The translations under genes were made by a program, and so were the position numbers. The notes below the pieces were generated by a model, which was not told the DNA's origin, made no database searches, and worked only from the letters and a program-made list of their open reading frames with translations. Positions 1 to 49,200 of a DNA stretch of 64,000 bases are shown here, piece by piece (position 1 is the stretch's first letter; each line of letters starts with the position of its first letter). This DNA comes from Siphonodentalium dalli (lineage: Eukaryota; Mollusca; Scaphopoda; Gadilida; Siphonodentaliidae), in contig CP136061.1 of the NCBI GenBank assembly GCA_032622095.1, forward strand, positions 89,274,983 through 89,338,982. Direction: 5' to 3'.

Positions 1-840
1 CTCTCACATTGCCGAAAACGTGTATTTAGTAATATCGTTGTTGTTGATATTTACGGCTTGGGGGCTATTTTCTTATTTAGCAAGTTAGAGCTCAAACGGT
101 TCGAGTCTATAAAGGACACACTCATATATATGACACTTCCCGTGGGTAGCAAGTTTGAGCTCAATCGGCATTCCCTGGAATTTCCCGTAGATTGGCAGAT
201 TCCAGTAGCTTTATAACGGTATATCTGGGGAGAAATCTGATGCTATATTCGTGATTATCTGGGATGATTTCGGTATATAATTATATACTGTAAAAACAAA
301 GCGCGCCATCCGTGCTCTCAGGGTTGGTCAGAAACAAATGTTTTTTAAATTTAATGTATGTTCCGTATATCTCTCTGCAGATGCAAATAACGTTGAATGG
401 CAAACAGACGCTCTTTATAGAGATGCGTCAAAAACAAACGCTCATTAAATAATCACTTGATTAACCCACGCCGTGCCTTTGCGGTGATTTGAGATTGGAG
501 AATGGGTGCTCTGATCTTCTCTAAACCGCGACCACGGTCGTGTCGGTGGGATTTGACACTTACATAGGAAGTTTGAGATCAATCTGTACACGCGTTTTGG
601 ATTCTATGAAGTACACACACACACACACACATATATACGAAGTCTCAAAATATATAGTATAGACTAGCAGGTTAGCCCGCCACCGGCGGCGTTTGTCCGA
701 AACATTTTGAATTATTTTGTTTTTATTTATATATTTTTAATATTTTTGTATTTTATGTTTTGTTTGTGTTTTTATGTTTACCCATACCATAGTATGGTAA
801 ACATAGTGTCGTTGCCCGGATTGACCACTCGTCGTTCGTC
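1..840. other. Non-coding flank, no gene seen
   Basis: AT-rich sequence with recurrent gtttgagctcaa phrases, a (CA)n run at about 611-632 and, near 836-880, a pyrimidine-rich series of tctgtc words typical of repeat edges. Bases about 352-510 recur at about 2706-2860 (see the duplication entry). No exon is supported. Confidence 0.5.
352..510 (+). repeat. Dispersed direct repeat, copy 1 (copy 2 at 2706-2860)
   Basis: About 150 bp containing aacgttgaatggcaaacag, gatgcgtcaaaaacaaac and gccgtgcctttgc recurs 2.35 kb downstream with roughly 10 per cent differences. It marks either a dispersed element or an old duplication. Confidence 0.6.
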
Positions 841-844
841 CGTC

Positions 845-1150
845 TGTTTGTCTGTCCATCTGTCTGTCAGTCCATAGAAACTTTACGAGTAATGCGATAA
901 CTCAAACATTTTCTATCCAATCGAAACCAAATTGTATATGGGTTTCTCATCCCAAAATACAGATCGAGTTCGAATTTGGGTTTGATCCGAGATTTTGTTA
1001 CAGAGTTATGGCCCTTTTTCAACTTAGAATTCACGCATTCTGCCATAACTCATTTTTTTATCTGATTGGAACCAAATTTGGTATGTGAGTTCGAATATGG
1101 GTTTGATCCGATTAATTTTAAAGGAGTTATGACCCTTTTTCGAGAAAAAA
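845..1150 (+). repeat. Family S ('gagttatggccc') tandem repeat, about 2 units
   Basis: Two diverged units each containing 'accaaatt', 'cgaat(a/t)tgggtttgatcc' and 'gagttatgrccctttttc'. The same family forms longer arrays at 28400-29070 and 39430-39930. It begins after a run of tctgtc words, as a dispersed repeat with a defined edge would. Confidence 0.6.
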
Positions 1151-2135
1151 AAATGAAAAAAAAAATCAATTTAAAAAAAAATTACTTTTAACTTTTATAA
1201 TAATAATAAAAAAAATGTCATTGACATTGTCATTTGTTTTCATTTAGATATTGATGATTATGATAAAAGTTGATAAAAAGATTTCCAATGTGTCCGTTTA
1301 ATTTTTTTAAATAATTAAAAAGTTTTTAAGTTAAAAAAATTTGAAAAACTAACACCATTATAACTCTGCCAAGGGTACCCCGAATCACCACACCAAATTT
1401 GATTAAATCGGTCCAAAATCTTGTGTTATGTACTGGCAAATCTGTTTGGAGCAACATTAAACCAATTCATTAATTGCCTTTGGACTACTTAGCTATTGAT
1501 AAGGCAATATTATTTTCTGATGTCTCTTATGCCAATGTGCAAATAATCTGATAAAGAAGGCTATGGTATCTAATTTAAAATAAAGATTCAACAATAAACA
1601 TCACATGATATTAACAGTAGACATCTCTGCTGCAGAGTTATATCTTCAGATGGTCTGATATCATTATAATTGTTATTTGTTTAATAGAGGGGTCAGTGTT
1701 CAACATAAACAATTCCTGTGATATTTTGACAGCTCTGCTATATAATTGATATTAATGGGTCAGTGGTGAGGTTGCTTATCTGTATACTAGGACACATTCT
1801 TATTGTAAACTTAAATTGGACTCTCTTAACCCAAGTATTCCATGTCCAGGTCACACCTACACATTTAACCCATGGGCTTGCTGGCTGTGGCGGTTTAGCA
1901 TTACAGATCCTGTACCAGTGCATTCTCTTATATAAATGGCAGTGACCCATAAATTCCAATAATTTGTGTTATGTACATTTGTCTATAATAGTACATAACA
2001 GTATACTCTATAATTCAACACCAAAATTCTCATTTATCCGATCATATTAAATTTTTATCGCCAAGGGATGGGTTAACATCTGCCGATCGTGATCGGCCTC
2101 TCGTTCAATGAGTTAATATTGGGTTTTTCAATATT
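1150..2135. other. AT-rich non-coding stretch
   Basis: Contains A/T-rich simple sequence (1140-1350) and no supported gene. Around 1895-1950 there is a half hairpin relic (agtgcattctcttatata), a degraded arm of the hairpin module found elsewhere in the window. Confidence 0.4.
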
Positions 2136-3540
2136 TTACCAGATTTGACCTTGAATTGATCATTTTCAAGGTCAAGGTCATGTCGGGGTCACAATATATA
2201 ATTTGTGGGTACCCGTTTGAAGGTTAAGACTGACCCGATGAAAAATTCCCCCGTTCCTAGGAACGACAGACATAAGAATGTTTCACACGTCGACGATCCC
2301 CGTGTGTTTTTACACTTATATACGAAGTTTGAGCTCACCTAGGGTGGAAAAACTTACCCGATCCGCGTTCTTAGGAACACAACACGCTCATGTCTATACA
2401 CGCCGTCGTGAACCCCATCCTCGCAAAGAGCGGACAGTCAATTAATCCCGTCGTGAACGCCATCACCAACGCGACGTAATTTTGTTTGGTATCATGTGTT
2501 GCGTTCTAAAAATAGGAAAGCACTTGCCCCGTATACGTTTGCGTAAATACGAAATTGTGAGTGTTGGTTTGTAACCGGGATTTCTGAGAAGCATTATGCC
2601 TATAACTACCCCCCCCCAAGCCCTGACCTAAGTGTTATACATACTATAACAATGATGTTGTAAGAGTACTATGGCATCCAATAAATCTCCCCACATAGGA
2701 AACCACTCAATGTTCCCGTATATCACTCTGCAGATGCTAATAACGTTGAATTGTAAACAGACGCTCTTTATAGCGATGCGTCAAAAACAAACGCTCATTA
2801 ATGATTAACCCCCGCCGTGCCTTTGCTGTGATTTGGGAGTGGATAAAGGGTACTCTGAGCTTGTCCATTTTGAAGGTCAAGGTCAAGTGGGGTCCAAAAC
2901 ACTGCCCGGACAAAAGTAACCGACAAACGTGCCCGTCAAAATCCATCCGGTTTTACCCGATTTGACCTTGAATTGATCATTTTGACGGTCAAGGTCAGGA
3001 CGGGGTCACGACTCGACCCGTCCAAAACACTCAGTGGACAAAAGTAACCCCACATATCAAATTTCGTCGAAATCCCATCAAAATTGGCGATATGACCTTG
3101 AATTGACCCGATTTCAAGGTCAAGGTCACGTCGCACGGGCAAATGAATATGCTTATGAGACTCCCCATACGAAAGTATCCCCACATACCAAGTTTCATCG
3201 AAATCCCGTGATATTCGGGCGTTTGACCTTGAAATGACCCAATTTCAAGGTCACATCGCACGGGCAAATTAATAGGTTTATGCCACTCCCCGGCCTTATG
3301 TACCCCCACATACCAAGTTTCATCGAAATCCCGTGATATTCGTGCGTTTGACCTTGAAATTACCCGATTTCAAGGTCAAGGTCACATCGGACGGACAAAT
3401 TAATAGGCCCATGTCACCCCCCGTCCGAAAATACCCCCACATACCAAGTTTCATCGAAATCGGCTTGGCCGTTTTCGAGTTCATCGCGAACACACACACA
3501 GACAGATACACAGACAGATCTTCCAAAATATATAATAGAT
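2136..3540 (+). repeat. 130-bp tandem repeat rich in tcaaggtca boxes
   Basis: From about 2936 to 3480, roughly four units of 126-131 bp repeat the phrases ccccacataccaagtttcat, cgaaatccc and an inverted pair tgaccttga...tcaaggtca. A single related segment lies at 2136-2290. The right edge ends in acagacagatacacagacag, typical of dispersed invertebrate repeats. Short frames predicted across it are repeat translations. Confidence 0.7.
2706..2860 (+). repeat. Dispersed direct repeat, copy 2
   Basis: Second copy of the sequence at 352-510, same orientation. It runs directly into the nuclear-receptor-like tandem repeat that follows. Confidence 0.6.
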
Positions 3541-5229: not shown

Positions 5230-8200
5230 ATTTCTAGCACTCATATTGACGACATCAGAGTTTTAACCCTTTATTTCTAGCACTCATATTGACCGACATT
5301 AGAGTTTTAACCTTTTATAGAGTTTTAACCTTTTATTTCAAGTACTCATATTGACTGACATCAGAGTTTTAGCCCTTTATTTCTAGTACTCATATTGACC
5401 GACATCAGAGTTTTAACCCTATATTTCTAGCACTCATATTGACGACATCAGAGTTTTAACCCTTTATTTCTAGCACTCATATTGACCGACATTAGAGTTT
5501 TAACCTTTTATAGAGTTTTAACCTTTTATTTCTAGTACTCATATTAACCGACATCAGAGTTTTAGCCCTTTATTTCTAGTACTCATATTGACCGACATCA
5601 GAGTTTTAACTCTTTATTTCTAGTACTCATATTGACCGACAGAGTTTTAGCCCTTTATTTCTGGTACTCATATTGACCGACATCAGAGTTTTAACCCTTT
5701 ATTTCTGGTACTCATATTGACCGACATCAGAGTTTGAGCCCTTTATTTCTGGTATTCATATTGACCGACATCAGAGTTTTAACCCTTTATTTCTAGTACT
5801 CATATTGACCGACATCAGAGTTTTAACCCTATATTTCTAGTATTCATATTGACCGACATCAGAGTTTTAACCCTTTATTTCTGGTACTCATATTGACCAA
5901 CATCATAGTTTTAACCCTTTATTTCTAGTACTCATATTGACCGACATCAGAGTTTTAACCATTTATTTCTAGTACTCATATTGACCGACATCAGAGTTTT
6001 AACACTTTATTTCTAGTATTCATATTGACCGACATCAGAGTTTTTAACCTTTTATTTCTAGTATTCATATTGACTGACAGAGTTTTAACGTTTTATTTCT
6101 AGTACTCATATTGACCGACAGAGTTTTAATGTTTTATTTCTAGTACTCATATTGACCGACAGAGTTTTAGCCCTTTATTTCTGGTACTCATATTGACCGA
6201 CATCAGAGTTTTAACCCTTTATTTCTAGTACTCATATTGACCGACATCAGAGTTTTAACCCTATATTTCTAGTATTCATATTGACCGACATCAGAGTTTT
6301 AACCCTTTATTTCTGGTACTCATATTGACCAACATCATAGTTTTAACCCTTTATTTCTGGTACTCATATTGACCGACATCAGAGTTTTAACCATTTATTT
6401 CTAGTACTCATATTGACCGACATCAGAGTTTTAACCCTTTATTTCTAGTATTCACATTGACCGACATCAGAGTTTTTAACCTTTTATTTCTAGTATTCAT
6501 ATTGACCAACATCAGAGTTTTAACCCTTTATTTCTAGTACTCATATTGACTGACATCAAAGTTTTAACCCTTTATTTCTAGTACTCATATTGACCGACAG
6601 AGTTTTAACGTTTTATTTCTAGTACTCATATTGACCGACAGAGTTTTAATGTTTTATTTCTAGTACTCATATTGACCGACAGAGTTTTAGCCCTTTATTT
6701 GGTACTCATATTGACCGACATCAGAGTTTTAATCCTTTATTTCTGGTACTCATATTGACCGACATCAGAGTTTTAGCTCTTTATTTCTGGTATTCATATT
6801 GACCGACATCAGAGTTTTAACCCTTTATTTCTAGTACTCATATTGACGGACATCAGAGTTTTAACCCTTTATTTCTAGTATTCATATTGACCGACATCAG
6901 AGTTTTAACCATTTATTTCTGGTACTCATATTGACCGACAGAGTTTTAACCCTTTATTTCTGGTACTCATATTGACCGACATCAGAGTTTTAGCCCTTTA
7001 TTTCTGGTATTCATATTGACCGACATCACAGTTTTAACCCTTTATTTCTAGTACTCATATTGACCGACATCAGAGTTTTAACCCTATATTTCTAGTATTC
7101 ATATTGACCGACATCAGAGTTTTAACCCTTTATTTCTGGTACTCATATTGACCCACATCATAGTTTTAACCCTTTATTTCTGGTACTCATATTGACCGAC
7201 ATCAGAGTTTTAACCATTTATTTCTAGTACTCATATTGACCGACATCAGAGTTTTAACCCTTTATTTCTAGTATTCATATTGACCGACATCAGAGTTTTA
7301 ACCTTTTATTTCTAGTATTCATATTGACCAACATCAGAGTTTTAACCCTTTATTTCTAGTACTCATATTGACTGACATCAGAGTTTTAACCCTTTATTTC
7401 TGGTACTCATATTGACCGACATCAGAGTTTTAACCATTTATTTCTGGTACTCATATTGACCGACATCAGAGTTTTAACCCTTTATTTCTGGTATTCATAT
7501 TGACCGACATCAGAGTTTTAACCCTTTATTTCTGGTACTCATATTGACCGACATCAGAGTTTTAACCCTTTATTTCTAGTACTCATATTGACCGACATCA
7601 GAGTTTTAACCCTTTATTTCTAGTACTCATATTGACCGACATCAGAGTTTTAACCCTTTATTTCTAGTACTCATATTGACCGACATCAGAGTTTTAACCC
7701 TTTATTTCTAGTACTCATATTGACCGACATCAGAGTTTTAACCATTTATTTCTAGTACTCATATTGACCGACATCAGAGTTTTAACCATTTATTTCTAGT
7801 ACTCATATTGACTGACAGAGTTTTAACCCTTTATTTCTAGTATTCATATTGACCGACATCAGAGTTTTAACCTTTTATTTCTAGTATTCATATTGACCAA
7901 CATCAGAGTTTTAACCCTTTATTTCTAGTACTCATATTGACTGACATCAGAGTTTTAACCCTTTATTTCTGGTACTCATATTGACCGACATCAGAGTTTT
8001 AACCATTTATTTCTGGTACTCATATTGACCGACATCAGAGTTTTAACCCTTTATTTCTGGTATTCATATTGACCGACATCAGAGTTTTAACCCTTTATTT
8101 CTGGTACTCATATTGACCGACATCAGAGTTTTAACCCTTTATTTCTAGTACTCATATTGAGCGACATCAGAGTTTTAACCCTTTATTTCTAGTACTCATA

Positions 8201-8308
8201 TTGACCGACATCAGAGTTTTAACCCTTTATTTCTAGTACTCATATTGACTGACATCAGAGTTTTAACCCTTTATTTCTAGTACTCATATTGACTGACATC
8301 AGACTTTT
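5230..8308 (+). repeat. 44-bp minisatellite, about 70 units
   Basis: The unit is catattgaccgacatcaga followed by gttttaaccctttatttcta and gtact. A recurrent 40-bp variant lacks one 'catc'. Units alternate at fixed sites (ctagt/ctggt, actcat/attcat, accctt/accatt/acgttt). Blocks of variants recur at about 432, 520 and 569 bp, which shows higher-order duplication. 44 is not a multiple of three and no frame stays open, so it is not coding. Each unit contains ttaaccctttatttc, resembling the end of the TTAA transposons, and the array stops against such an end (8307-8345). Confidence 0.95.
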
Positions 8309-8348
8309 AACCTTTCTTTACTAAATGAATTCTCCCACCCAGTTAACC
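8305..8348 (+). mobile_element. Family H terminal remnant
   Basis: ttaacctttctttactaaat followed by gaattctcccacccagtta matches the left end of family H elements (compare 41976). Only the terminus survives, abutting the minisatellite. Confidence 0.55.
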
Positions 8349-8393: not shown

Positions 8394-8970
8394 TAAAGGG
8401 GTACTGTACACTATATCCACCCATTTCTGGGACCATTTCCTTTTAACCCTTTACCCAACAAACCGGCCAAAACCGGCCAAATAAAGCTTCAACAGCCTAA
8501 AATATCTTCGGTCTGTCTCAATAGAACCATACAAATATGGATATCATTGGAACCGGCTCCTTGACCACATTGTGATAGTTACAGTTATGCCCTGTGCCAA
8601 TGCATTCTCTTATATATGCGAGTCGACCATAGGTCGCCTCGCATATATAAGAGAATGCATTGGCCTAAACAAAATCTTTTTTTAACACTTTTTACCATTT
8701 TTTCTTACATTCTTTAACAATTTTATAATTTTTAATGTGTTAAGCCAATGCATTCTCTTATATATGCGAGGCGACCTATGGTCGACTCGCATATATAAGA
8801 GAATGCATTGGCACAGGGCCGTTCTGTTGGGTAAAGGGTTAATACTTAATATGAATATATGCAACTAATGAATGCATTTGAGCCATTAATTAGTTCAAAA
8901 TACACTTGTGTGCTCTATGAACGATGCAAACAACATGGTAATTAAAATGAAATGAATTTATTACTGGAGT
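8394..8970 (+). mobile_element. Family E element (left part) interrupted by a family A element
   Basis: aggggtactgtacactatat followed by cccatttctgggaccat matches the left arm of the better preserved copy at 31420. After the insertion at 8443-8842 the arm resumes with gaatatatgcaactaatgaa and runs to about 8970. The right arm is missing. Confidence 0.65.
8443..8842 (+). mobile_element. Family A paired-hairpin MITE, copy 1
   Basis: TTAA, then ends ccctttacccaaca and tgttgggtaaaggg, then TTAA: a piggyBac-like layout. Inside are two 69-bp palindromes (8596-8664 and 8744-8812) in opposite orientation around an AT-rich spacer. The left unique part carries two accggccaaa words. It is inserted into a family E element, so the host sequence is known on both sides. 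Confidence 0.9.
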
Positions 8971-9497: not shown

Positions 9498-9754
9498 TTA
9501 ACCCTTTCATGACGGGAGCTGCGATTGTGCAGCATTAAATACACTGTGCCAGTGCATTCTCTTATTATCCGAGTCTCCCATAGGAAGCATAACATATATA
9601 AGAGAATGCACTGGCTTACAAGATCAATGTAAATATTGTTATACCAATGAATTCTCTTATATATACGGAGCTCCCAAACTCGCATACTATACGAGAATTC
9701 ATTGGCACAGGGTTTTTGACAAATTTCAGGAATCTTTAGTCATGAAAGGGTTAA
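9498..9754 (+). mobile_element. Family B hairpin MITE, copy 2
   Basis: TTAA-ccctttcatgacgggagct at the left and gtcatgaaaggg-TTAA at the right. Both hairpins are partly eroded in their loops (ttattatccgag; ctcccaaactcg). Confidence 0.85.
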
Positions 9755-20431: not shown

Positions 20432-20678
20432 TTAACCCTTTGAGTGCCAGGTCGATTTTTGTACCAACCCATATACCCTGTGCCAATGCATTCTCTTATA
20501 TATGCGAGTCGACCATAGGTCGCCTCACATATATAAGAGAATGCATTGGCCTAACATTTTTTTTTTTTTTTTTTTTACAATTTTTTACAATTTTGATAAT
20601 TTATTCTTATATTTTTTAACAGACTTATTTTGTAGGTTTAGGGCCGATGAGATCGGCCCCTGGCACTCAAAGGGTTAA
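20432..20678 (+). mobile_element. Family C hairpin MITE (TTAA type), copy 1
   Basis: TTAA-ccctttgagtgccaggtcga ... cccctggcactcaaaggg-TTAA. Carries one 69-bp palindrome (from 20479) joined to the left part at ccatat|accctgtgcc, then a T run and AT-rich spacer. Confidence 0.88.
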
Positions 20679-40200: not shown

Positions 40201-43200
40201 TGTGCCTTCAAATGTTGCCGGACCCTCTGCAAATAACTGGTCTGTAAAGACTGTACTGACAAGTTCAAACCTCCCAAAATTGCCAAAGATCATGTTACAG
40301 TGATGCCCTAAATAATCGACTCCTTACCCACAGCAGAGTTATGGGTACTTTTTCAGGATTTAGTCGGAAATATGGCTTGTTGCCATTCATCGGAAAGCTC
40401 TCACTGAAAAAGTACCCATAATTCTGCTGTGGGTAAGGAGTCGATATTATTTGGGCATTACTGTATGTTAGACTGATTCATAATCTTCTAGGAAGATTTC
40501 AAAATAATATCCAATCTATACAATTTAGCTGAGTCTATTGAAAAATATTGTAAATTTCACATAAAAAGAAAAATACATTGTTAGAAATCCTACAAATACG
40601 TTTCATTTCGTTTGTGTTAACCCTTTACCCAACAAACCGGCCAAAACCGGCCAAATAAAGCTTCAACAGCCTAAAATATCTCCGGTCTGTCTCAATAGAA
40701 CCATACAAATATGGATATCATTGGAACCGGCTCCTTGACCACATTGTGATAGTTACAGTATGCCCTGTGCCAATGCATTCTCTTATATATGCGAGTCGAC
40801 CATAGGTCGCCTCGCATATATAAGAGAATGCATTGGCCTAAAAAAATGTGTTAATGCATTGGCCTAAAAAAATGTGTTAATGTGTTAAGCCAATGCATTC
40901 TCTTATATATGCGAGGCGACCTATGGTCGACTCGCATATATAAGAGAATGCATTGGCACAGGGCCCTTCTGTTGGGTAAAGGGTTAATAACAAGTAAAAT
41001 CTCCCGGAGGAAAAATAACAAACTCGTGTCACGTACAGACGACCAAAATCAATTGAAGAGAGAGAAGATCAAGCGTTTTAAAATCAATGATTGATTCAAT
41101 AAATGAAGAATCAAAATACGACAGACACGATCGCCGCAGACGAGGACGAGTGTTGGAATGCTGAGAAACAGTTAATAAGCCCACAGCTTCCGTATATTAA
41201 TATCAATCCGAACCCACCAGCTTCTCTAAATTGTCATTCGTTTTCGACACACGTACCACAACCACACGATTGCATTGGGTGACAGATGGTATCTTGTTGA
41301 TGTACTAGTAACTTGAAACCAGACAGTCATTATGTTAGTAAAGTTAAACAGATGGGCCACCAGCTATTGATATGGCATTTTAGAAATTTTTATGGTTAAT
41401 TATTACAACTTGTTACTTGAAAATCTAAACATAAAAGTGTTTTTTTACATGTTGTTTTTTAAATTTCATCAGTTCAACATAACGGGCTAGCATCATCAAA
41501 TTTACACTATAGGAACCTCATTCTGCTTAGGCCTCAACTGCTATGGGAGACCTAGGATCAGATTAAAGTTCTCAAGTTGAAGTTGGTAGGTTATGTTGAC
41601 TCATTAAGTCACCTCGATTATGCATTTTATTTTCTGCTAATTAGGGAATATAGAAACTGAACAGAAGGGGGAAAAGTAACTAAAAACAATATTAATTCGA
41701 GACTATAGATACTTCGCAGAAGACGAGGCCAGAGCAGAATGAGGTCCCAGAGGGTGAATTTGGTGATGCTAGCCCACTGTGCAAATGACTGACACACTAT
41801 ATCCAGGCTTGCTGAGAGAAGTCGTGTGATTATTTATAATTGTCATTCATTGTAGACACACATATGCGGTGCCACCCCAGTTACATTCTGAACCATGTTT
41901 CGGTTAAATCGTAACTGTGGTTATAAGATAAACACAGATGTGGTTAAACAACAAGACAACAGTAGGATGGTGCAGTTAATCCTTTCTATACTAAATGGAT
42001 TCCCCCATTCAGTTATAAGATGTACATCTGAATGGTCCATTATTCATTTAGAGGGATGTTAAGGTTATAACAGCAGACGACAGATATATAAAAGTGCAGA
42101 ATGAGCCCTATTTATTGAGGGAAATGTTCAGATAATAAGTTCAACAAATATTTTCTGTGGGATAACTATACTGGGCATTAATGATGCTTTGGTATAGAAA
42201 GGGTTAAAAACAGATATTCCGTTGTTAATCCTTTCAGTGCAAAGTCCGATTTTTGTTGATACAAAAATCAGACTTGCCACTGAACCATGCAGTATCTGTT
42301 TCAGTGGATCAACCATGCGTACGCCGTAGGGGCAATGAACCTTTGTCAGTTCCCGAGAGCTTTCCGATGAATGGCAACAAGCCATATTTCCGACTAAATC
42401 CTGAAAAGTTACCCATAATTCTGCTGTGTTTAAGGAGTCGATTACTTAGGGCATTACTGTATGTGTGCATTGCAGAGAGATATCGTGTAGATCTGGCATC
42501 AACAATATCGTATGTTCTTCTCATTGAATGTGATATGGCTGTAGCTCTACTTACAACCGCAATCGGAACTTGGTTCGAAACAATGATCCTCTATTGAATA
42601 TAACTTTTGATCACACAAATTATCCTCAGTTTCTTATTAACCCTTTACCTAACAGAACGGCCCTGTGCCAATGCATTCTCTTATATATGCGAGTCGACCA
42701 TAGGTCGCCTCGCATATATAAGAGAATGCATTGGCTTAATACATTAAAAATTATAAAATTGTTAAAGAATGTAAGAAAAAATGGTAAAAAGTGTTAAAAA
42801 AAGATTTTGTTTAGGCCAATGCATTCTCTTATATATGCGAGGCGACCTATGGTCGACTCGCATATATAAGAGAATGCATTGGCACAGGGCATAACTGTGA
42901 CTATCACAATGTGGTCAATGAGCCGGTTCCAATGATATCCATATTTGTATGGTTCTATTGAGACAGACCGAAGATATTTTAGGCTGTTGAAGCTTTATTT
43001 GGCCGGTTTTGGCCGGTTTGTTGGGTAAAGGGTTAACATACTTTCTACATAGGGGAGATGAAATCTTCGTTTTGCACACATGCAGTACAGCATCAACGAT
43101 TACCTGCCAGTCTCTAGGATTGTAATGATATGAATTTAAGCTCTAATTATTTTCATTTTGCTTATTGCAGATGTACCAAAGGGTAAAACCAAAGTTGTTG

Positions 43201-46200
43201 AATTTTTTTGGCTATAATAGTTTTAATTTTATGTTATTCAGACAAGTTTAGTTGTTGAATAGAAACAATCAGTTTGTGGTTGTGAAATAAGCACATAATA
43301 TTCCTTTAATCCTTTCTTTACTAAATCCCATAGGGAGCCTCACATATATAAGAGGATGCACTGGCTTACAAGATCAAGGTGAATATTGTTAGGCCAATGC
43401 ATTCTCTTATATATGTGAGGCACCCTATGGGTGACTCGCATATATAGGGAGCCTCACATATATAAGAGAATGCTTTGGCACAGGGTTTTCTAAAAATATC
43501 AGGAAGCTCCAGTCATGGAAGTGTTAAATATGGAATATCCTTTTAATTAAAGGTTCTCTTTGGAACAAGTGACGGGCAGATAGTGGTGATGAGTTCCACG
43601 GGGGCCATGCTCACCCAGGTGGTAATCCAAGAGGGAATGGAGATTACATCGATGGCGTGGTCCTGTGAAAAATTCAACTTAGAAGAAGTTGACGCTGATA
43701 CATATAGTGTGAATAGAGGTAATTAACTTCTAGACCAGGCCTGATTATAGTGTTCCTGTCATTTGCAGAATAAGGTCCCCACAGGGTGAATTTAGTGACA
43801 CTATCTTGCATAATGGGCTAGCATCACTAAATTCACCCTAACGGGACCTCATTCTGCTTAGGCATCATCTTTTCTTGAAAGTTTCTTTATTATAAAATTT
43901 CTATAGAAACTTCTTTACATAGATTTTATTTTTTTTTAGTTTAGTTTCTCTATATCCCCAAATTGGCAGATGACACATTGTATAATTGAGGGTTCCAATG
44001 GGTGTACATCACAATATTCACCTTTTGGGAACTTCAATCTGAGTCTATGTCTCCAATAGAAGATGTGGCCATGCAGAATGAGGTCCCCAGAGGTTGGTGA
44101 TGCTAGCCCACTATTCGGGATAGCATCACTAAATTTACCTTCTGGGGACCTCATTCTGCATATGACAGGCACACTAAACTCAGGCTTGTTCTGGACCCTA
44201 TTCTTAACCCTCCTCATTTTTAATTTGGATAATTTTTCTTCTCATGCCTTAAAGATGGATTATCTCTTCATTTAAAGATGGATTATCTCTTCATATAACA
44301 ATTTTGAAATAGTTTCGTGGGTATAAAATAATAAATATGAATTGATGACCCATGTCAAAGACTCCTGTCCAGAAATGCTTCTATCGATTTAATATTGATT
44401 TTATTTAGAATATTTTCTGGTCTAAAAAAGTATGGTTGTTTAGCTAACGAACAATAGTGGTTACTGTTAACAGAGACCAGAAATTTTATTGGGTAATTTT
44501 GTCACAAATAAACTTTAATTAGACACATTATCGCTTATAACTATGTAATAAAACAATACAATAAATCAATCTGGGACATTTGACGTTCGGTACGTAGCTA
44601 TAGGAACAGCCTAATGCTCTCTGTCGCTATATGGTATCGCCTGAATGATATGTTCTAAAAATAGACCAATAAAGTGTCCCAATTAATCATCTCATTTCAT
44701 AATAAAATATTTGAAATAAAATCAATATTAATTGATAGAAGCCTTTCCGGACAGGGGTCGCCATGTCATATTTATTATGTTATACCCATGCAACTATTTC
44801 AAATTTGCTATTTAAGAGATAACCCATCTTTAAGTTCAAACATTTTAGTCTGAATATGATTTTAAGAATATTTTTGAATGCTTTGACCTTTTCCAGTTAT
44901 TACCATCAAGTTTTGATTAACCCTTTCATGACAGAAGCTGCACTGGTGCAGCATTAAAGACCCTGTGCCAGTGCATTCTCTTATATATGTGAGTCTTCTG
45001 TGCCCATAAGGAGTCTCGCATTTATATAAGAGAATGCACTGGCTTACAAGATCAAGGTAAATATTGTTAGGCCAATGCATTCTCTTATATATGCGAGGCA
45101 CCCTGTGGGCGACTCGCATATATAAGAGAATGCATTGCCAAAGGGTTTTCGCAAAATTTCGAGAAGCAAAATTCATGGAAGAGTTGAACTTTGATATTTC
45201 ATTGGATTGGTAGTGCCACTGTAACATTATTGAGTTATTAATACAGTTGATTAATAATGAAAATAAGAACAAAGTAGATATATTTTTACTTGTTAATGAC
45301 TGTTGTTTTAGAAACTTTTATAAAATTTGTGTTATTACGTCAAACTGTTTTCATGCTTGAATCTCTGAATATCCAATGATTTACTTTACAGAGAAAGAAC
45401 AGAAGGAGTACACCCTTGCAGTTTGCTTCAAATATGGTGCTATCTTTTTGATGAGTAATTTTGACGACATTTGTCCCAAAGTAATACAGACTTTTCTCAC
45501 AGGTGAGATCTTTGTCTATGTTATATAGGTGCATTAACTATAAGATAAATGTTATTTAAAAGTTGGAGGTAAAGAACATTATGCAAACACAAGCTATAAA
45601 GAGCTGTTGACCGACTGTAAAAATATACATTTATAAATTACACACATATCATATCAATTTTATACAAGTTAAAATATCCTAATTAAAAATACCTAACTGT
45701 AAGTTGTAACAGTTAATTGTGTTTAAGTGCAAATAATTGTGCTTAAGCATAAATAGCTTATTTGTGCTTAAGATTATTATAATATTTGCACTTTAAAAAG
45801 CGCAATTTGCGGTTAAGCGCAAATAATTGAGCTTAAGTGTAAATAATTGCGCTTAAGCACAAATAATTATTAAAAGTGAATGTGGCCTCCCATACATTTG
45901 CTGCACCAAATAAATTTCTGGCATTGGACACTTTCGTTAGCAAGTGCCATATAATTGTAAAACATGAATATAAAATGTTGATTTTAAATTTTTCTTTCCC
46001 AGGTGTCAAAATGGATTGGTCGAATCAGGGAGAGATTTTGGCAGTTGGCGGCTTTACTCGCCTTCCCAATCTACAGTGTCGAAATGAGATCCATTTCTAC
46101 TGCAAGGATGGAAAAATGAAGCATCTGGTCAACGTTCCTTCTCAGGTGAGTAGGCCTCAATATATGGTGCCGGACATTTGCAGAATGAGTAGCGTCGAAT

Positions 46201-49200
46201 AAAATTTTACCCTGTGCCAATGCATTCTCTTATATATGCGAGTCGACCATAGGTCGCTTGCATATATAAGAGAATGCATTGGCCTAACAATTTTTTACAA
46301 TTTTATAATTTCACCCATACAGAGCCCCAGACAAACATGAGCAGACGACACTCTTCTATATGCTTCTATATATGTGTGGGGCTCCCTGCAGGGTAATGTA
46401 TGTTTTTTATTTGATTTAAATTGTAAGAATCATTTATTTTTAAAAAATGATAAAAAATTGTTAGGCCAATGCATTCTCTTATATATGCGAGGCGACCTAT
46501 GGTCGACTCGCATATATAAGAGAATGCATTGGCACAGGGTAAAAATTGTGTTATCATCTGAACATGAAACTATTAAACAACGTCACGCACTGCTTCCTTT
46601 TCATTTAATCATAAACATTATGCATTACCATAAATATTTCAGTGCAATGACACCTAGATTTTCTTCCCATGGATTAGAGTTGCAATTTGACTAAAAAATT
46701 GAAATGGCTCAAATGAAATTATCTCAAATTTATCGATAAATATAAGAAACAAAATGAGAGCTTTCCGATGAATGGCAACAAGCCATATTTCTGACTAAAT
46801 CCTTAGAAATTACCCATAATTCTGCTGTTGTTAAGGAGTCGATTATTTAGGTATATCTGTGATAGCTCTTGCCACATTATGTATACATAATTTAGGTGTT
46901 CTAACGAGTGTTGTCTGTTTAAATAGAATTGCTCTGAAGCGGGCTGTCACTGGTGTGGGTGATTACGGAGCCATTCAGATAATATAGGGATGCCCCAACA
47001 ATCAACCTATGGTAAACTTATAAAAAAAATCATCATTTCAAGCCTGCAAATAGTGTGTCTGTCATTTGCAGAATGAGGTCCCCCAAAGGGTGCATTCAGT
47101 GATGCTTTCCCACACAGTGGGTTAGCATCACCAAATTCGCCCTCTGGGTGAAAACAATGGTAGCAAAGTCTTTTGCTGTCCATCATTATTTTGTTCCCGT
47201 TCATTTATTTCCTTCTTCCCCGCACAAACATTCAAACCGAATGACGTATCTTCTTCACCTCTGCACTCACTTCCAGTATTTACATATTGCTGTCCCAAGA
47301 GCAATAACTGTATCTCTCTCAATCACAAAGTCTCTCCAACAACCAATTGCTATCCAAGAGCAGTAACTCTATCTCTCTCATCACAGACAGTCTCTCCACA
47401 ATCAACATGTAGTTAACACTGGGGACCTCATTCTGCTTAGTCCTCATCTTCTGGAAAGTATCTATAGTTTCAAATTAACAATGTTTTTAGTAATTTTTCC
47501 CTTCTGGGAAGTTTCTCTATCCCCTAATTTGCAGAAGATAAAATGCATAATCGAGGTGATTAATGGGTAAACATCACCAACTTCAACTGGGGAACTTCAA
47601 TCTGATCCTTGGTCTCCCATGTAGCTGTTGAGGCCTAAGCAGAGTGAGGTTCCTGGAGGGTGAATATGGTGATGCTAGCCAATTGTGCAGGATAGCATCA
47701 CTAAATTCACCCTCTGGGGACCTCATTCTGCAAATGACAGACAAACTATTTCAAGGATTGCATCATTTGAATTATTTATTACAGGGTAAGCCCCTCACAG
47801 CATTATGTTGGGGACACAACGATCGGCGGCTATTTATAGCAGCAGGGTACATCCTGTTTGTCGCGTGGGTAAATAAACAGGTGTCGCCACTACAAATGCT
47901 GTGTCAGCGAACGCTTCAGCAGCTGATTAGAGAGGAGGAGAGGGTCGAGACGCTGCCCCTCCCAGCTCGGATCAAACTCGGCATCAAAGCTTTATTCTCT
48001 CCAACCATCAAGGTTAGATTAAAAAACAGTTATACCCAGGCCTTAAAATTCATTAAAGTTTGCGAGAATCAAATATAGCATTTCTACAGCGAATCATCTG
48101 CTTTTTATGAGAATCAAACTAAGAATCGTGATTCCGATTCTCGTCAGATTTTAAACGCTGGAGGTATATTTCCTTCCATAATTCTAATAATGAACTTGGG
48201 ACTTAATGAACAGTAGAGATGCACTGTATCCTGATAATTCCTTTACTATTATTCAGAAATTCATGACTAATTAGGTTATTAGTAGAATATCTTTAGGCAA
48301 TTGAAAAATAAGTAGTTCATCTATTTGCGGAACCATCATAATTCATAAAACTAAATCAAAACAGACTTATAAGACATGAATAATGAAAACCATTTATTTG
48401 TCAATACAAAAGATTTAAATAAAAAAAAAAAATTCAATATATATGCGTGATGATGTTATGGGGAATTTTTTTTTTAATTCCTCTTATTACATTTATTTGA
48501 CAAATCACTGACATTAGTCAGCCTAAGAAAAGCTTTGGTCGATGTGAATTTAACCATTTGTCAGGTAGAACGACATAAATGTCGCTGTGCAGTTGGTAGG
48601 TGGAGTGACATTTATATTGTATATTATTTATTTTAATATGTATATTATTTCAATTATTTACATTGATTCATGTTTTTAGTATTGTTCTTTGTATCATTTA
48701 TTTGTTATATAGACGATTGTTACAATATTAGTCAATTTATTTGCAAAAATATATTCACCCATGGATGACATGACATCATGTAACGTACTCACCTGCCAAA
48801 GAGTTAAAACTTATATTTATCTTGTCTTCAGAGTTACATTCCGGATCCATTGAAGTTGCGAGAATTTGTGATGACGCCTCCTCCTGGTAACGAGAGGATG
48901 TACTGTACAATGATTCGCCATGGCGACGAGACATCTGGTGGTCACTATACTCTCTACCTTGAGTATCTAGGTGGGTTAGTTCCATTGCTCAAAGGAAAAC
49001 GCACCAGCAAGATCCGGCCAGACTTCGTCATATTTGATCCAAACATCAAAACAGAAGGTAACCGGCCTTTTTAACCTCTTCACTGCTAATGATTTGGAAT
49101 GCTGGGCTGATAATGTTATTGCCATTTTCCAGTGGAAAAATATAACGGGAACATCACGAAAACCTTAAAACTGACTCAGTTGAAAGGCTATTATCATTCA

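Follow-up and report, generated by a model that had tools for sequence, protein, structure and literature searches.

It is the ends that define a MITE family, and what lies between them is usually regarded as passive filler. The piggyBac-like TTAA MITEs have ends of the CCCTTT type and a TTAA duplication. For the elements described below, the closest precedent in the parts of the literature drawn on here is provided by the CMITEs of the coral Acropora, which have different TIRs around an internal region of high conservation, together with TTAA duplications and ends of the CCCT type (PMC2872659). These elements have been linked to piggyBac-like transposons, the origin of their shared region is given as unknown in the available part of the report, and one CMITE shows the ends of one family together with an internal variant of another (PMC2872659). 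For Galileo of Drosophila mojavensis, the excerpts of the report used here describe chimeric copies with both TIRs of one subfamily and the internal region of another, and inverted repeats are proposed to attract the recombination and conversion involved (PMC3573991). In addition, the V highly conserved domain of SINEs is also found in the MER6 MITE, according to the portion of the source available (PMC6887750).

The hairpin pair in the window

The window, that is, the whole stretch of 64,000 nucleotides of Siphonodentalium dalli that was analysed, holds at 46209-46540 a pair of hairpins which an initial annotation had described as opposed and bounded by ACCCTGT and ACAGGGT. This architecture is confirmed, with mirror-related hairpins of 68 and 69 nt, and the unit is composed as follows (A, B, C and D denote the carrier families treated in the next section).

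46202-46208, no strand assigned: left A/T flank AAATTTT, which prolongs the outer inverted repeat; in family D, this place holds a T-run
46209-46215, plus strand: left edge ACCCTGT, of which CCCTGT is common to families A, B, C and D
46216-46283, plus strand: left hairpin (H), 68 nt
46284-46464, plus strand: spacer, A/T-rich arms (CTAACA... and ...TGTTAG) flanking a D-type core at about 46312-46393
46465-46533, plus strand: right hairpin (H′), 69 nt, reverse complement of H
46534-46540, plus strand: right edge ACAGGGT
46541-46547, no strand assigned: right A/T flank AAAAATT, partner of 46202-46208

H′ differs from the reverse complement of H by one gap and one substitution, both of which lie beside the loop. 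The outer inverted repeat (46202-46257 and 46492-46547) is 98% complementary and overshoots the cassette by about 7 nt of A/T-rich flank on each side. The spacer of 181 nt had been annotated as AT-rich; this holds for its flanks, whereas its centre, at about 46312-46393, is the distinct D-type core, which is present once in the window. When the unit was folded as single-stranded DNA, a z value of -26.6 was obtained and 0 of 100 shuffles folded as well. The 14-mer GCCAATGCATTCTC, with up to 2 mismatches allowed, gives 77 matches in the window compared to 0.45 expected, and an Rfam search of 45900-46900 returned no match. Elsewhere in the window, an exon-like stretch at 46002-46145, ~60 bp upstream of the cassette, gives a weak, below-cut-off match to the N-terminal domain of WDR35/TULP4, and a tandem array with a unit of about 44 bp, starting with TTAACCCTTTATTTCTAGTACTCATATTGACC, occupies 5263-8330.

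Carrier families, their ends and their cores

A 32-mer spanning the cassette edge has 127,059 exact copies (63,580 + 63,479) in the 2.23-Gb genome of 9 contigs, and the reversed control has 0. The carriers were sampled at 40 loci taken from the first 100 listed places of this 32-mer (contig C1, 0.1-4.6 Mb), with members of tandem arrays skipped; the sample is conditioned on the exact 32-mer and therefore leans to young copies. In 37 of these 40 loci, the cassette lies within one of four element families, the ends being those of A in 13, C in 10, D in 11 and B in 3, with none of these in the remaining 3. Within each of the pairs L040/L047, L045/L058 and L059/L060 the flanks are in common, and these pairs are probably duplicated DNA. 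The common part starts at CCCTGT in all four families and, in copies that have both sides, ends at ACAGGG. These sharp boundaries (CCCTGT...ACAGGG) define the hairpin pair as a cassette, which is combined with several sets of ends. On C1, C-ended cassette copies recur at about 11,175-bp spacing over 842587-920842, a long tandem array with one element per unit.

It had been noted previously that the pair, or one half of it, is embedded in three families of the window. The observation is borne out, the pair being present in the A and B elements of the window and one half in the C elements read there, as in these examples.

8443-8842, minus strand: family A, TTAACCCTTTACCC ends, pair embedded
9498-9754, plus strand: family B, TTAACCCTTTCATG ends, diverged hairpins
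20432-20678, plus strand: family C, TTAACCCTTTGAGTGC ends, one hairpin (half cassette)

The terminal motif CCCTTT is present in A, B and C, which fits the CC[C/T]T of piggyBac-type TTAA MITEs. TTAA lies at both sides in 48 of 54 end pairs of family A and in 34 of 46 of family C (cassette-free copies included), some elements being counted on both strands; for family B, it lies at both ends of the one window example. All ten C loci of the carrier sample hold one hairpin each, and a C end adjoining a two-hairpin cassette was found at another locus (L165). Another TTAA-type family, CCCTTTCTATACTAAATGGATTC, occurs in the window at 41976-42207. A stretch similar to it, at about 720-830 of L033, holds GCAGACGACAG, which is like a motif in the D core, and this motif is possibly a further shared module.

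Family D is not visible from the window alone because its ends, searched with up to 3 mismatches, were not found there. The D ends (GTGACCCGCCATATCAAATC..., also GTGACCCGCCATATC) are GTGACCCGCCATATCAAATCCAGTCGTAAGTCGGGATTTTTTT. Identical A/T 4-mers (ATAT, ATTT, AATT and AAAT) flank 14 of 19 D end pairs, a target duplication of 4 bp, and family D is not TTAA-bounded as piggyBac-type elements are. One D copy (L016) sits in the TATATA of a B-element hairpin arm with ATAT on each side, and the same junction is found on the left side only at L006.

The divergence of the hairpins was compared among 69-nt hairpins without indels, 43 of 156 being left unclassified. A (39), C (16) and D (49) have one and the same consensus, whereas that of B (9) differs at 4 positions, and the mean divergence from the own consensus is 8.1% in B compared to 0.6-1.0% in A, C and D. 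In the nine B hairpins, from the window element at 9498-9754 and others, joint changes of both arms number 9 compared to 3.1 expected, 7 of them complementary, in what are few and related copies. In stretches, the spacers of D agree with those of A at 46 of 53 positions and with those of C at 41 of 45, each above all 200 shuffles; for A against C, the score of 43 is not above the shuffle maximum of 44. In 16 D copies, which had been found through the spacer or the cassette, non-CpG divergence on the left side is 0.51% in the hairpin compared to 2.30% in the end, with 2.28% in the spacer, while on the right side the hairpin (1.74%) is much like the end (1.79%). Homogenisation of the hairpins between families is suggested by the shared consensus sequences, the D data being only half supportive.

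Ends and cores occur in more than one combination. When L001, which has A ends and a D-type core, served as the query, 1159 first-look candidates were obtained; of the 40 matches scored, 25, L001 included, are of full or nearly full length and 2 are partial. The other 13 align only over query positions 25-362, from the first base of CCCTGT to two bases past ACAGGG, i.e., CCCTGT to ACAGGGTA. Twelve of these core-only matches were read as loci, and all have D end sequence, with the right D end truncated at L012 and L134 and with flanks alike at L011 and L131; the thirteenth is the window copy, which is without ends. Thirteen A-ended hybrids were fetched besides L001, of which 12 have TTAA on both sides and one (L127) on one side, and three (L118, L124 and L125) have flanks in common. 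The A-ended family with a D-type core is itself dispersed.

For C ends, exact patterns of 33 and 23 bases give 11,649 junctions to the cassette compared to 9,427 to an unrelated core in the genome; palindromic elements may count twice, so that these are not element counts. Ten loci with C ends and another core were read with two ends or the core visible. Nine cassette-free C loci with both ends are palindromic MITEs of 149-224 bp whose C ends differ at a few bases, two of them (L137 and L138) looking identical; the palindrome of these elements (L137-L144 and L147) extends over nearly the whole length. C ends at most 30 bases apart were found at 50 places, mostly with a different core (TTTCCTTGATC...) and once as exactly CCCATATATGGG, and a further joined C centre without the cassette was read at L148. 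The empty-site pattern for D ends occurs at 3 places, one of which (C5:82037799) has only a T/A-run between the ends and two of which have other remnants. One exact pattern for A ends with at most 10 bases between them and no cassette gave 0 places. The joined C and D centres without the cassette could be pre-insertion forms or deletions. The initial annotation had considered that the module would be only an inherited internal part if every copy lay within TTAA-bounded elements of common ancestry. This is not what the genome holds, because family D is not TTAA-bounded and because ends and cores are recombined, as seen in the A/D hybrid and in C with and without the cassette.

Copies without family ends and the proposed origin

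The bare cassette has inverted ends of its own, CCCTGT/ACAGGG plus the hairpins, and it had been proposed as a unit in its own right. The proposal holds in so far as the cassette is discrete and keeps its edges across families of unrelated outer parts, but a stand-alone transposon is unsupported. Bare edges were searched with the window-flank pattern AAATTTTACCC (18 exact copies in the genome, all of which were read) and with VSTACCC..., an unrelated flank ending in TA (80 exact copies, 40 fetched). These 18 and 80 matches compare with 127,059 edge 32-mers, both patterns covering part of the possible flanks and demanding TA on one side. Many of the matches are bare on one side but have D, A, B or C on the other, represent minor variations of C or D ends, or break off within the spacer. 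Many dispersed end-less copies, as expected of an independent transposon, are not seen in the carrier sample, where 3 of 40 loci (L028, L037 and L048) are without A-D ends and two are independent, the flanks of L037 and L048 being alike. No amplified stand-alone subfamily was found, and no common target duplication longer than TA was seen in the bare copies.

No recognised ends flank the pair on either side in the window copy, L008, L037, L072, L075, L076, L077, L090, L096, L154 and the set L155/L158/L159. Clean edges with unrelated flanks on both sides are found at L076, L096 and L154. At L155, L158 and L159, a bare, clean-edged cassette is embedded in a TTAACCATTTAGC element that has a direct repeat of 27 bp outside it; the flanks are in common, and the three are probably duplicated DNA. 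No empty copy of this site was present among the loci fetched. The start of the TTAACCATTTAGC element resembles the end of a piggyBac locus (L108). At two different loci, L154 and L156, GACTGAGTA stands just before the bare left edge, which is perhaps chance or the remnant of another end. With the window spacer as the query, 18 of 20 loci fetched (of 40 scored matches) have D end sequence on at least one side, and the other two have A ends (L001) or no known ends (L008). The window copy most likely represents a D element whose ends have been lost, because its spacer has the D-type core and its relatives are mostly D-ended.

A search for an autonomous partner gave 128 piggyBac domain matches in the genome, some elements giving two, and many have open frames of 500-720 codons; the piggyBac set of this genome is large and possibly active. 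Twenty of the loci were fetched together with 1.8 kb of flanking sequence per side, and pairing of the ends succeeded in 4. Of these four, none has A, B or C ends, and no hairpin arm lies inside a piggyBac element in the 20 loci, one arm at about 4564 of L110 being outside the element ends at 452-3393. The transposase search, which covered piggyBac only, linked no enzyme to the bare cassette.

On balance, and with modest confidence, we favour an origin in which an internal MITE cassette on at least four end sets was spread by the outer ends and recombined by repair, the window copy being an end-less D element. The cassette would be the internal part of non-autonomous DNA transposons (MITEs), joined to at least four unrelated sets of ends. 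Transposases acting in trans would read the outer ends, those of A, B and C at TTAA and those of D at a 4-bp A/T site, whereby the copies multiply. The long hairpin may stall or break and be repaired or converted on another hairpin copy, and repair via the hairpins could swap the core between them, or an end, in a manner like that proposed for Galileo in the excerpts cited (PMC3573991). A fitting transposase would then amplify a successful hybrid, for example, A ends with a D-type core. The window copy would be of D lineage, with both of its outer ends lost within or alongside the T/A-runs that adjoin CCC and GGG. New combinations of ends and cores most likely arise by DNA repair. Against repair exchange, no exchange is caught in the act, and it is only on the left side of D that hairpin divergence is clearly below that of end and spacer. 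Moreover, recombination inside the hairpins leaves the identical CCCTGT edges in all families unexplained, whereas such edges would follow if a discrete unit had originally been inserted; the clean-edged copies with unrelated flanks look as insertion would give.

Insertion of an independent unit at TA is the strongest rival, unlikely yet credible: the cassette would be a non-autonomous transposon with ends CCCTGTGCC...GGCACAGGG, inserted at TA in the centres of older palindromic MITEs (C and D) and rarely in ordinary DNA. Its edges are sharp and identical across carriers, joined centres without the cassette exist in C and D, and TA|CCC and GGG|TA are found at D and at every bare pair except L037, which has no TA on the right. 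Since TA beside CCC/GGG is also part of C and D elements, copies derived from them would show it too, and both bare-edge patterns required TA on one side. TA is also the commonest dinucleotide before CCC (13 of 31 rows, counted by eye among the first 100 of 367 places with three free flanking bases, after family variants of AAA-, CCATA- and CGG/GGG-type had been set aside), although full reading showed two of these 13 rows (L081 and L083) to be variants of C. Furthermore, the junctions of A and B are without TA, no cassette-free A element was found with one exact pattern, the bare copies are rare, and no autonomous partner was identified at the piggyBac loci examined. It is rather doubtful that the hairpin pair is a transposon of transposons, self-bounded and moving at TA, which would prefer the centres of palindromic mini-transposons, ride on the transposase of the carrier and so colonise TTAA elements as well as a second target-site class.

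Direct repeats around 24 bare or truncated copies were compared with permuted flanks; L069 was left out as a B variant, and VSTACCC... copies were represented by L077, L088, L090, L092 and L096 only, L149-L168 being outside the test. They bear on the improbable reading of bare and one-sided copies as retro-insertions, in which a transcript ending in the A-run beside ACAGGGT would be reverse-transcribed by a LINE. Two copies that end in GGGTAAAA stand out with repeats of 15 bp (L061) and 10 bp (L073), permuted flanks reaching at least 10 bp in 0.5% of pairs. Two other copies are borderline, L072 with 9 bp at a distance of some 15-20 bp from the edges and L008 with 8 bp. The remaining 20 of 24 are not above permuted flanks, including the window copy, whose 6 bp is reached in 41% of permuted pairs, and including L062, L066 and L088, for which the test is uninformative since the aligned stretch stopped inside the element and misplaced the edge. 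In addition, most of the tested copies came from a pattern that fixes the A-run end. Descent of all carriers from one hairpin-bearing ancestor, of which the outer ends alone diverged, deserves very little credence. The B hairpins are a more diverged version (8.1% compared to 0.6-1.0%), and the A/T arms of the D spacer are homologous to those of A and of C; however, unrelated ends and two target types accompany an identical hairpin consensus, C ends also occur with an unrelated core, and A ends occur with two different cores.

Comparison with known systems

The CCCTTT ends of piggyBac-like TTAA MITEs match those of families A, B and C, and their TTAA duplication matches that of A and C, whereas D has no TTAA. 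As in the CMITEs, families with different TIRs have a common internal region here. However, the available part of the CMITE report describes TTAA elements, unlike family D, and a shared region of one 75-base stretch instead of a mirrored pair of hairpins, and the mirrored two-hairpin plan and a second target-site class are absent from that description (PMC2872659). In local alignment, the 60-base CMITE probe, as printed there, matches the window cassette no better than shuffles do. The Galileo excerpts resemble our proposal in the exchange of sequence between copies, but that exchange takes place within subfamilies of one transposon, whereas here the families have unrelated ends and target sites (PMC3573991). 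Similarly, the MER6 case, as far as the consulted portion goes, has a conserved internal domain across unrelated mobile elements, although that domain is SINE-derived and the one here is a DNA palindrome pair in DNA transposons (PMC6887750).

As far as our searches go, the sharing across two target-site classes and the dispersed A/D hybrid family are new, and nothing closer was found in the literature. The system allows testing of whether an internal hairpin pair promotes amplification and of how MITE families get assembled. Moreover, a classification of repeats based on internal sequence would place together elements whose transposases probably differ. In this genome, it is the inside that is the common part and the ends that are interchangeable, across two target-site classes and at a very high copy number.
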